A DNA stretch of 64,000 nt from Geothrix limicola. Lineage in GTDB: Bacteria; Acidobacteriota; Holophagae; Holophagales; Holophagaceae. Location: the NCBI RefSeq assembly GCF_030268085.1, contig NZ_BSDE01000001.1:930001-994000 (forward strand), written 5' to 3'. Below are positions 27,300 through 30,531 of the stretch, one piece after another. Position numbers and translations under genes: made by a program. The first letter of the stretch is position 1, and every line of letters begins with the position of its first letter. Under the pieces are notes generated by a model, which was given only the letters and a program-made list of their open reading frames with translations, was not told the origin of the DNA and ran no database searches.

Positions 27300-27895
27300 C
27301 GGGATCTTTCCTGGGCGAGTCGGAGGAAGTTGGCGAGCATGGCTGGGCCATCGGGCGTGAGGATGCTTTCGGGGTGGAACTGGACGCCCCAGCGCGGAAG
27401 GTGGCGATGTTCCATCGCCATGATTTCGCCGCCGGGGCTGCGGCCCGTGACGCGCCAGCAATCCGGAAGAGAGGCCGGATCGGCGATGAGGCTGTGATAT
27501 CGGCCCACGGGCAGCCCCGCGGGCAGGCCCGTGAAGAGGCCGGTGCCGTCGTGTTCCAGCGAAGTGGCTTCGCCGTGCAGGGGTTCGAGGGCGCGGGTCA
27601 CGCGGCCGCCCGTGGCGGCGGCCAGGGCCTGATGACCGAGGCAGACGCCGAGCAGCGGCACGGCCCAGTCCGAACCCGCCAGGGCCATGTGGGCGGGGCT
27701 TTCCGTGGGGTGGCCGGGGCCCGGCGAGAGCACCACGGCGTCGGGATGGAGCGCCTTCGCATCGGCCAAGGTGATCGCATCGTGACGGACCACGCGCACC
27801 TCGGCGCCGAGGGTCTCGAAGGCCTGCACCAGGTTGTAGGTGAAGGAATCCAGCGCGTCGATCAGAAGAACCTTCATGGGGGCCACTGGGATCAT
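27296..27895 (-). CDS. trpG: Anthranilate synthase glutamine amidotransferase subunit
   Basis: 199-residue class I amidotransferase: LLIDALDSFTYNLVQ, VLSPGPGHPTE, the nucleophile Cys in GVCLGHQALA, and the His-Glu pair in GVQFHPESILT. It supplies ammonia to TrpE. The ATG at 27895 overlaps the trpE stop by 4 bases; an ATG six codons later is the alternative. Such subunits may also serve aminodeoxychorismate synthase; no pabA/pabB gene is seen here. Confidence 0.93.
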   Translation of the reverse strand: MIPVAPMKVLLIDALDSFTYNLVQAFETLGAEVRVVRHDAITLADAKALHPDAVVLSPGPGHPTESPAHMALAGSDWAVPLLGVCLGHQALAAATGGRVTRALEPLHGEATSLEHDGTGLFTGLPAGLPVGRYHSLIADPASLPDCWRVTGRSPGGEIMAMEHRHLPRWGVQFHPESILTPDGPAMLANFLRLAQERSR

Positions 27896-29277
27896 CGGGA
27901 GGCTCCGGGCAACTGGACGCCCAGGGCCTGAGCGATGGCGCCGAGCTTGTGCAGGGTTTCAAAATATTCCGCTTCGGGTTTCGAGGCGCGCACCACGCCG
28001 GCCCCCGCCTGGATGTAAGCCGACCCGCCGGTGTAGACCGCCGTGCGCAGGATCAGCGCCGTGTCGAGCACGCCGTCGGCGCCCAGCCTCAGCAGCACGC
28101 CGCCGTAGGGGCCGCGCACCTCGCCTTCGAGTTCGGCGATGCGCTGGCAGGCGCGGAGCTTGGGCGCGCCGCTGACGGTGCCCGCGGGGAAGGCCGCGGC
28201 CAGCACGTCCAGCGCGTCCACGCCAGGTTTCAGCTTCGCCTTCACCGTGGTCGTCAGGTGCAGCACGTGGCTGGTGCGCTGCAGGGCCAGCGGCAGTTCC
28301 ACCCGGACGCCGCCGGGCACGGCGACGCGGCCCAGGTCGTTGCGGGCGAGGTCCACCAGCATCTGGTGCTCGGCCAGTTCCTTGGGATCGCGCTTCAGGG
28401 CTTCGAAGCGCTCGGCGTCCTCTTCGGCATTGGCGCCCCGGGGCACGGTGCCCGCGATGGGCAGGGTTTCGGCCTCATCGCCCTGGACGCGCACGAGCAT
28501 TTCCGGCGAGGCGCCCACCAATGCGAAATCACCCCATTCGAGCAGGAAGCCATAGGGACTCGGGTTGAGGCGGCGCAGGCGCCGGTAGGCCTCCATGGGC
28601 CGGGGCGGATCCTCGATGCGGAAGCGCTGGCTGGGCACCAGCTGGTAGATGTCGCCGTCGAGGATCAGCTCCTGGGCCGCGGCCACGGCACCCTCGTAGG
28701 CTTCGCGGGCCATGAGCGGGCGGGCCTTGGGCTCGAAATGGCCGGGGCCCGGATCCTTCGCCCCTTCCAGCAGCAGGGCCTTCAGGGCCGCCAGCCGTGC
28801 AAAGCCCGCCGCCGGATCCGCATCCAGGGTCTGCAACTCCGCCACCTGGTGCAGGTGGTCGAAGACGAGGGCCGTGTCGAAGCGGCGCACCCAGAGGCCG
28901 GGCAGACCGAGGCTGTTCCGCGCGGGCAGGGCCAGGCTGGGTTCCTGCGCCCCCATGGCCTCGAAGCCCAGGTACCCGGCGCAGCCCACGCCCACGGGCA
29001 GGCCCTCACGTAAGGCCGGCAGGACAGCCTCCGGATCATGGATCGTGTCGGCGGGCGTCTCGCCCCCCAGCTCGCGCAGGGCCTCCACCCAGCCCCTGGC
29101 GGGGGCCTCCATGCGGCATTCGGCAGGGCCTTCGAGCAGAACGAAGCTGTGGCGGCCCACCCGCTCGCCCTGGTCGCAGGATTCGAGCAGCAGGCTGGCG
29201 CCCGCGGGCCGCAGCGCGAGGTAGGTCGCGAGGGGCGTCAGCAGGTCCGCGGGGAGGGGATGTCGGATCAGGTGCAT
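27892..29277 (-). CDS. trpE: Anthranilate synthase component I
   Basis: 461 residues. The N-terminal LLESCDQGERVGRHSF matches the tryptophan feedback-binding motif LLES. The chorismate-binding C-terminal domain has DGDIYQLVPSQRF, PYGFLLEWG, PIAGTVPRG, LVDLARNDLGRVA and FPAGTVSGAPKLRA. It makes anthranilate from chorismate with TrpG. The start at 29277 was chosen because homologues begin near there; an in-frame ATG at 29355 would run through the attenuator region. First structural gene of the operon, controlled by the leader just upstream. Confidence 0.93.
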   Translation of the reverse strand: MHLIRHPLPADLLTPLATYLALRPAGASLLLESCDQGERVGRHSFVLLEGPAECRMEAPARGWVEALRELGGETPADTIHDPEAVLPALREGLPVGVGCAGYLGFEAMGAQEPSLALPARNSLGLPGLWVRRFDTALVFDHLHQVAELQTLDADPAAGFARLAALKALLLEGAKDPGPGHFEPKARPLMAREAYEGAVAAAQELILDGDIYQLVPSQRFRIEDPPRPMEAYRRLRRLNPSPYGFLLEWGDFALVGASPEMLVRVQGDEAETLPIAGTVPRGANAEEDAERFEALKRDPKELAEHQMLVDLARNDLGRVAVPGGVRVELPLALQRTSHVLHLTTTVKAKLKPGVDALDVLAAAFPAGTVSGAPKLRACQRIAELEGEVRGPYGGVLLRLGADGVLDTALILRTAVYTGGSAYIQAGAGVVRASKPEAEYFETLHKLGAIAQALGVQLPGASR

Positions 29278-29360
29278 GGGGAAGACCTTGGAGAAAACCA
29301 GATGGGGTGTGGGGGTTCGGGGGTGTGCGCGAAGCGCGGAAGCACCGGCGGGCATGAACG

Positions 29361-29386
29361 AAAAAGCCCGACCAGAAGGTCGGGCT
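29361..29386 (-). terminator. trp attenuator (terminator hairpin with U run)
   Basis: On the minus strand GAGCCCGACC-TTCT-GGTCGGGC is followed directly by TTTTT: stem arms 29378-29386 and 29365-29373, T run 29361-29365. It stands between the trp leader ORF and trpE, where an intrinsic terminator would block the operon. Its 5' arm region (29382-29390) can instead pair over nine bases with 29435-29443, inside the leader ORF just after the Trp codons, forming an antiterminator. Confidence 0.9.
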
Positions 29387-29412
29387 CGGAGGGTCCGGAA
29401 TGGCGTCGGCCG

Positions 29413-29505
29413 TCAGGCCTCGCACAGGGAGCCGTCCGAGCCCATACGCCACCACCAAGCCTCGCAAGAGAGGCCCTGGCAGGGGATCGGGAAGGACAGC
29501 AGCAT
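29413..29505 (-). CDS. trpL: trp operon leader peptide (30 aa, three tandem Trp codons)
   Basis: Thirty codons from ATG at 29505 to TGA at 29413. The peptide begins MLLSFPIPCQ and has AWWWRMGSDG in its middle. Three consecutive TGG codons occupy 29449-29457. When charged tRNA-Trp is scarce the ribosome should stall here, leaving 29435-29443 free to pair with 29382-29390 and preventing the terminator at 29361-29386. This is the classic ribosome-mediated attenuation layout. There is no clear ribosome-binding site, and the nearest promoter would start the RNA almost at the ATG, so leaderless translation is possible. Confidence 0.85.
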   Translation of the reverse strand: MLLSFPIPCQGLSCEAWWWRMGSDGSLCEA

Positions 29506-29512
29506 GGAAGCG

Positions 29513-29542
29513 ATGAAACCCGATTCCCGTGCCTTCTGTCAA
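29513..29542 (-). promoter_or_regulatory. trp operon promoter
   Basis: Minus-strand consensus -35 TTGACA (29537-29542) with a -10-like TTTCAT (29513-29518), 18 bases apart; shifting the -10 one base (GTTTCA) gives 17. Only seven bases separate the -10 from the leader ATG. No obvious TrpR-type operator is seen. Confidence 0.55.
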
Positions 29543-29595
29543 GTCCTGGCGGGCCTCCTTCCGGCAAGTGTGGTTTGATGGGGGATTGCTTGCGG

Positions 29596-30531
29596 ATGGA
29601 CATGGATTCTTCAGAACGGCCCTCCACCATTCACACCGAGGAAGCCCTGGCACCCCGGGCGCCCTGGCACTTCCTGCGGGCCTCCCTGCCCGGCGGCTTC
29701 ACCCGCTGGGGCTGGGGCCTCATGGGCGGGTGGATGCTCGTGCTGCTGGGGCCCGCCCTCGGCTGGGCCGGCCACCTGCGCCGGGCCGCCGGGTGGAGCG
29801 CCCTGCCCAGCCACTGGGGCGAGAGCCTGACCACCCGCGACATCTGGGAGCTCTGGGAGAACGGTGGCCTGCAGCACCGCCTCACCAATTCGCCCACCGT
29901 GCACCTGCTGGGTCTGGGCATGGTCATCGTCCTCTGGTGCGGGTGGCGGATGCAGGCCGAAAGCGCCGAACTGAAGGCCCGCCTGGGCCCGTGGCTGCTA
30001 GGCGCGCTGGACACGGTCCTCATCGGCTTCCTGCCCCTGGGCGCCCTGACCTGGGCCATCGCCTCGATCCTCGGACAGCTCGGCGGATCTGGCCTGGATT
30101 TCCTCGGCTGGATCGCCTTCTTCGGCCGGCCCCTCGCCTGGATGGCGCTGGTGGCGGCCCTCAACCTGCAGTGGTGGTTCTGCCGCATGGGCCGGGCCGC
30201 GGGACTGAGCCGAGGCTACCTCGCGCACCTGGGTGATTCGTTCTTGCGCCTATGGCTGCACCCCATCCAGTGGGGCCTGGTGTCCGTGGGTGGCGCCGCG
30301 CTGCGGTCCCTGCTGCCCTTCCTCGTCCTGCTGCTGGCCTGGCGGATGGGTGGCGGCACCACCTTCCGCGTCTGGCTCTTTCTCGGGCTCCAGCTCCTGG
30401 TCACGGGCCTCAACGGCTGGCTGATGGGCTGGCTGCTGAGGACGACAGCCCGTTTCTGGAATCACGATGTCGCCGTGCGGGAAGCCCGCGTGGCCTTGAA
30501 GGAATCCGTCCGTGAAGCACAGATCAGCTAG
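29596..30531 (+). CDS. Multi-pass membrane protein of unknown function
   Basis: About 311 residues with roughly six hydrophobic segments (around residues 37-57, 98-116, 138-160, 170-188, 218-245 and 250-270 by eye). The N-terminus is polar; the C-terminus is short and charged (HDVAVREARVALKESVREAQ). I do not recognise a family. The start is uncertain: ATGs at 29578, 29596 and 29602 are in frame, and GGGGGAT (29580-29586) suits the second. It is divergent from the trp operon, and its end overlaps the next gene by 20 bases, so it is cotranscribed with the 5'-nucleotidase genes. Confidence 0.7.
   Translation: MDMDSSERPSTIHTEEALAPRAPWHFLRASLPGGFTRWGWGLMGGWMLVLLGPALGWAGHLRRAAGWSALPSHWGESLTTRDIWELWENGGLQHRLTNSPTVHLLGLGMVIVLWCGWRMQAESAELKARLGPWLLGALDTVLIGFLPLGALTWAIASILGQLGGSGLDFLGWIAFFGRPLAWMALVAALNLQWWFCRMGRAAGLSRGYLAHLGDSFLRLWLHPIQWGLVSVGGAALRSLLPFLVLLLAWRMGGGTTFRVWLFLGLQLLVTGLNGWLMGWLLRTTARFWNHDVAVREARVALKESVREAQIS

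Follow-up and report, generated by a model that had tools for sequence, protein, structure and literature searches.

The window analysed here, a 64,000-nt stretch of DNA, carries on its minus strand a trp operon in the order trpE-G-D-C-F-B-A (profile matches), preceded by a promoter, a short leader ORF and an intrinsic terminator. In the genome collection, the 36 closest relatives of the window's organism fall in one genus with it, and its TrpE protein also matches records named Geothrix paludis, G. campi and G. rubra as well as Holophagaceae MAGs. The DNA is thus from Geothrix, a soil and sediment bacterium of the Holophagaceae (phylum Acidobacteriota), or from a very close relative; an acidobacterial host had been conditionally supposed in an earlier note on this DNA. 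TrpR gave no match in the genome searched, and nothing resembling a leader for another amino acid was seen 5' of hisG, ilvB or leuA in this genome. The trp leader comprises the following features.

29537-29542, minus strand: trp promoter -35 hexamer TTGACA, without variation among the 42 Geothrix-group genomes whose leader was readable
29513-29518, minus strand: -10 hexamer TTTCAT, 18-bp spacer, ending 7 nt 5' of the leader AUG
29505 (ATG) to 29415-29413 (TGA), minus strand: trpL, leader ORF of 30 codons encoding MLLSFPIPCQGLSCEAWWWRMGSDGSLCEA, predicted to be leaderless, without Shine-Dalgarno sequence (SD)
29494-29500, minus strand: region 1, GCUGUCC, pairing with GGACGGC (29437-29431)
29449-29457, minus strand: sensor, tandem Trp codons TGG TGG TGG, with 2-3 TGG in each relative
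29431-29443, minus strand: region 2, GGGCUCGGACGGC (DNA GGGCTCGGACGGC), common to the 1:2 and 2:3 helices
29408-29419, minus strand: stop-codon hairpin GGCC-UGAC-GGCC, its loop containing the stop codon (29415-29413), 98.8 % of cells paired
29382-29390, minus strand: region 3, UCCGAGCCC (DNA TCCGAGCCC), 3' strand of the antiterminator, overlapping the terminator arm
29361-29386, minus strand: intrinsic terminator 3:4, AGCCCGACC-UUCU-GGUCGGGCU followed by U5, 100 % of cells paired in 40 sequences
27892-29277, minus strand: trpE, predicted first regulated gene (NCBIfam TIGR00564, E=1.9e-117, under the model's curated cut-off but the best match)

When the sequence was re-read, all coordinates given by the earlier note at the trp leader proved correct. 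Direct reading bore out its 30-codon minus-strand ORF with TGG TGG TGG (29449-29457) ahead of trpE, and likewise its terminator hairpin with T5 (29361-29386) before trpE, which starts at 29277; at the DNA level this hairpin reads AGCCCGACC-TTCT-GGTCGGGCT (29386-29365) with T5 at 29365-29361, minus strand. The 9-base complement it described was also present, GGGCTCGGA (29443-29435) being the exact reverse complement of TCCGAGCCC (29390-29382).

The flanks of the leader contain further features. A gene divergent from trp in Geothrix (29602-30531, plus strand) encodes a predicted membrane protein with the N-terminus MDMDSSERPSTIHTEE; it had no NCBIfam match at E<=1e-5, and its start region is conserved genus-wide. 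Between the terminator and trpE (29280-29355) lies an insert of about 80 bp (CCGGTGCTTCCGCGCTTCGCG...), found 3' of the terminator in L001, L004, L007, L026, L027 and L030 and missing from other Geothrix. Its core has a single further copy in the genome, with one mismatch, and mobility or membership of a repeat family was therefore rejected. In most Geothrix, TGGTGGTGG recurs about 130-150 bp upstream; this second copy was not accepted as a leader, because its opposite strand codes for the TTIH stretch in the divergent gene.

Conservation of the leader ORF and its RNA pairings

The ORF, Trp cluster, complement and terminator occur together in 42/42 Geothrix-group genomes with a readable leader. 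The earlier note had staked its reading on the WWW ORF and the 9-base pairing being conserved in close relatives, and the ORF with its Trp cluster and the complement are kept throughout this set. This conservation was the decisive evidence on which we accepted the observation as real. Forty Geothrix-group sequences were aligned from the AUG to the terminator; the two outside the alignment, L147 and L151, differ from these in promoter detail only.

Start, stop and frame of the leader ORF are kept throughout the Geothrix group, and its length is 30 codons across the alignment apart from one sequence of 31, which carries a 3-nt insertion, the sole indel in the ORF. No Geothrix-group sequence has fewer than two in-frame Trp codons in its sensor (WWW, YWW, WRW, WYW, WFW or SWW), the variants among the 40 being AWWW (20), AYWW (5), AWRW (4), GSWW (4), AWYW (3) and others (4). 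In some relatives Arg, Tyr, Phe or Ser takes the place of one of the three sensor Trp residues, yet where CGG, TAC, TTC, TAT or AGC breaks the nucleotide run the sensor still has 2-3 Trp codons. The distance from the stop codon to the terminator arm was 29-31 nt in all 40 sequences. Codon-position entropy was 0.54, 0.67 and 0.46 for positions 1, 2 and 3, the third being not more variable, and by this measure the rest of the peptide, beyond the Trp cluster, bore no sign of protein-type purifying selection. Judged by its sequence, this is what an ORF constrained by RNA pairing and by its Trp codons should look like.

The same entropy values, and the absence of protein-type selection from most of the peptide, would also suit an untranslated ORF whose conserved GU-rich run is kept for pairing only, with the terminator constitutively lowering operon expression; TTGGTGGTGG does belong to the 1:2 fold. 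We give this reading hardly any credence, however, given the universal start, stop and frame, the restriction of ORF indels to a single one of 3 nt, the persistence of 2-3 Trp codons despite an interrupted run, and the recurrence of Trp clusters in other families with unrelated RNA sequence.

Constraint on pairing was evident in both helices that share region 2. Dinucleotide-preserving shuffles of the spacer yielded an exact 9-nt match to the terminator arm with its flank in 0.4 % of cases (p=0.004). Across the 40 sequences, the 2:3 helix was paired in 351/360 cells (97.5 %) and the outer 1:2 helix, GCUGUCC/GGACGGC, in 273/280 (97.5 %); for each helix 0/1000 shuffles were as good, and sliding the partner by 1-3 columns lowered pairing to 2-59 %. 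Pair 71/123 of the 2:3 helix moves from C-G through U-G to U-A, the region-3 A having been gained about five times on the trpE tree (L008; L012/14/15; L019; L023; L029), always opposite a region-2 U. The compensating U change alters an amino acid (TCG Ser to TTG Leu), indicating that RNA pairing outweighs peptide sequence. In the 1:2 helix, U-A became A-U in L011/L018 and G-C became U-A in L007. The terminator and the stop-codon hairpin are nearly invariant; their pairing is thus conserved and offers no independent covariation support. Covarying stems and conserved clusters of Trp codons, signs for which the earlier note had proposed a search in relatives, were both found in the Geothrix group.

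Promoter spacing and the predicted leaderless start

The -10 consensus across the 42 Geothrix-group genomes was TTTnAT, with a -35/-10 spacer of 17-18. The gap from the -10 to the leader AUG was 7 nt in 41/42 and 6 nt in L147, and no SD precedes the AUG in any of the 42. Transcription usually starts about 6-8 nt 3' of the -10. Since the spacing observed here matches that distance, the trp mRNA is predicted to begin at the leader AUG or within two bases of it, and the leader ORF is almost certainly leaderless.

The related genera L064-L066 have a different -10 (TGAGAT) and again a gap of 7, on which the -10 scorer agreed for L064 and L066, choosing another site in L065. Gaps in outlying genera were 9 (L152) and 6 (L153). 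In two more distant Holophagaceae genera (L161, L067/L163), by contrast, about 20 nt separate the -10 from the start codon and an SD is present (GGAG, AGGAG), and four f5 genera likewise have a gap of about 20-27 with GAGG/GGAGG; families f3, f6, f9, f13, f35, f37 and f59 show a gap of 6-10 at the likely start, without SD. The short-gap class lacking an SD and the long-gap class with one are nearly exclusive (L080, L123, L124, L165, L168 and L042 fit neither clearly), which supports the leaderless reading. Leaderless genes were predicted to make up 9.7-19.4 % of genes in all three Acidobacteria examined (PMC3160421), and the Sinorhizobium meliloti trpL transcript starts at its own AUG (PMC7298713).

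Nearly all Geothrix carry, upstream of the trp promoter and at a varying distance from it, a conserved element CATCAAACCAC, which reads GTGGTTTGATG on the plus strand and occupies window positions 29575-29590 (both strands). The core of this element, GGTTTGAT, is similar to the trp -10 region, GGTTTCAT, and may serve the divergent membrane-protein gene as its -10.

Proposed mechanism and alternative sensors

A cluster of Trp codons, an antiterminator that covaries, a 1:2 helix that competes with it, a terminator and the trp operon behind them support the ribosome-mediated trp attenuator of E. coli type claimed by the earlier note, and we conclude with high confidence that ribosome-mediated transcription attenuation controls the trpEGDCFBA operon at this locus. 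From this anatomy and the evolutionary constraint on it we infer translation of the ORF, ribosome stalling and a response to Trp. Transcription would begin at the AUG that opens the 30-codon ORF, or no more than two bases from it, as the -10 spacing suggests. With ample Trp-tRNA, the ribosome would pass the Trp codons, region 2 would be masked or re-paired with region 1, and the 3:4 terminator would halt transcription ahead of trpE. With charged Trp-tRNA scarce, the ribosome would stall on the Trp codons and open the 1:2 helix, freeing region 2 for region 3; once formed, the 2:3 helix would block the terminator and let the operon be transcribed, a step whose pairings are backed by covariation. 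If the ORF went untranslated, the 1:2 helix would favour termination.

The two alternative leader folds, whose comparison the earlier note had proposed, were modelled in 40 sequences by constrained equilibrium folding with assumed ribosome footprints, and in this model the terminator and the 2:3 helix exchange with ribosome position. Median P(terminator) was 0.98 in the free RNA, 0.22 with a ribosome on the first Trp codon and 0.99 with a ribosome at the stop, and median P(2:3) rose from 0.02 free to 0.79 with a ribosome on the first Trp codon. For L001 alone, P(terminator) was 0.99 free, 0.11 stalled on Trp and 1.00 at the stop. The model shows no switch in L007, L032, L035 and L037. Before region 4 emerges, 2:3 forms in every modelled ribosome state, and the real outcome would therefore depend on kinetics. 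The E. coli trp leader under the same protocol did not switch (0.97 in all states), although its attenuator is proven; the folding is thus supportive, not decisive.

A terminator between promoter and trpE is to be expected of any attenuator class, including one in which a protein (TRAP-like or other) or an RNA aptamer or T-box, and not the ribosome, reads tryptophan or tRNA-Trp. Such a sensor appears extremely unlikely. No Rfam family, T-box included, reached threshold, with matches up to E=1 falling far under gathering scores and no T-box among the matches at E<=1 in the window. Although neighbouring codons vary, the Trp codons stay clustered and in frame, which an aptamer would not need, and leaders of unrelated families are again Trp-rich ORFs. 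The sub-threshold matches listed for the window (rnk leader, anti-hemB, Yfr1 and SorY) were rejected, all resting on the G+C-rich terminator hairpin.

The leader might instead serve mainly as a trans-acting small RNA or peptide, with attenuation secondary, as with rnTrpL/peTrpL of S. meliloti (PMC7298713); a leaderless, terminator-ended RNA of about 145 nt would arise constitutively when Trp is plentiful. A covarying antiterminator is needed only for cis attenuation, however, and the peptide bears no sign of purifying selection beyond its Trp cluster. We consider a chiefly trans-acting leader very unlikely and retain ribosome-mediated attenuation in cis.

Leaders in other Acidobacteriota and in known systems

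Upstream regions of trpE (PF04715 or TrpE matches) were scanned at 109 genus-level acidobacterial loci, with the Geothrix set left out, for a uORF with at least two Trp in six codons together with a terminator, the reverse strand serving as control. A terminator lay upstream of trpE in 38/109 loci, and a Trp-cluster uORF with terminator was found in 29/109 on the forward strand versus 1/109 on the reverse. Three terminators among the 29 overlap the ORF and L078 is doubtful, leaving about 25 loci with good geometry in about 15 families (f1, f3, f5, f6, f8, f9, f13, f28, f35, f37, f50, f52, f59, f64 and probably f2, as labelled in the genome collection used); in L049 the scan picked another ORF than its WWW ORF. 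Equilibrium folding did not separate the ribosome states in most other families, and because it fails there and in E. coli, a duplex test against shuffled spacers was used: antiterminator complementarity reached p<0.05 in 15 of the 26 loci tested, with about 1.3 expected. The scan detected no Trp-cluster leader in family f10 (ten genera) and many others, indicating that the trait is patchy.

WW(W) motifs 5' of trpE in f15, f23, f29, f43, f45, f61 and others were rejected as leaders, lying without a terminator inside a conserved ...LVAQA..QF.WWTG... tail, which we take to be the C-terminus of an upstream AroE-like protein. In L099-L112 and L117-L130, which represent several acidobacterial families, trpE sits directly 3' of the gene ending in this tail, with neither terminator nor leader.

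Many leaders have Tyr beside Trp, e.g. RYYYWWYM and SRYYWWWC, and Tyr clusters were found by the scan on 13 forward versus 0 reverse strands. Leader peptides of L091, L123, L131, L038 and L079 have Tyr/Phe codons adjoining the Trp cluster. Such codons may reflect sensing of several aromatic amino acids.

Like the E. coli trp attenuator (trpL; RF00513), the Geothrix leader combines a short ORF bearing tandem Trp codons, mutually exclusive 1:2, 2:3 and 3:4 helices and a terminator before trpE. It differs in being predicted leaderless where the E. coli leader is SD-led. Its region 2 falls within the ORF, about 20 nt ahead of the stop codon, and not after it; the stop codon sits in the loop of a conserved hairpin; and no TrpR was found in the genome. 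The RF00513 Trp_leader model (gathering threshold 41 bits) had no match in the Geothrix genome, and scored 34.5 bits (E=0.0003) on L045, a leader of the same device class from another family. The S. meliloti trpLE(G) leader (peTrpL/rnTrpL) shares the leaderless ORF, here predicted, with consecutive Trp codons, and that species has trp attenuation without transcriptional repression (PMC7298713); its peptide is of 14 aa before a single trpE(G), compared with 30 aa and a full operon in Geothrix, and the two are likened by layout, not homology. Trp-dependent leader-peptide attenuation in another phylum, in the actinobacteria Corynebacterium glutamicum and Streptomyces venezuelae, is cited in PMC4833913 and is likened here by description.

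A 2010 survey knew of no leader-peptide system beyond Proteobacteria and Actinobacteria and added one in Firmicutes; predicted acidobacterial attenuators were, by its account, almost without assigned function (PMC2965389). No paper linking trp leader peptides or attenuation to Acidobacteria or Geothrix was found among the non-subscription full texts searched. The extension of the mechanism's known range that the earlier note foresaw for an acidobacterial host holds for the Geothrix group and many acidobacterial families. That note did not include the predicted leaderless start, the 1:2 helix, the conserved hairpin that has the stop codon in its loop, or the spread across the phylum. What is new is this phylum-level range and the frequent, predicted leaderless form of a known mechanism, not the mechanism itself. 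Opinion is evenly balanced on a broader proposal, that Acidobacteriota as a phylum have long used ribosome-mediated trp attenuation, built mostly on leaderless ORFs (-10 to AUG 6-10 nt, no SD) and switched between leaderless and SD-led forms (-10 to start about 20-22 nt, GGAG/GGAGG) even within one family. If true, such switching would offer a natural experiment on how attenuation depends on the way ribosomes are loaded, the leaderless form being directly comparable in this respect with the SD-led forms of relatives. In sum, comparative evidence for the textbook trp mechanism is strong in many families of Acidobacteriota, and these results provide a testable account of Trp regulation for genomes in which TrpR is not found, such as that of Geothrix here.
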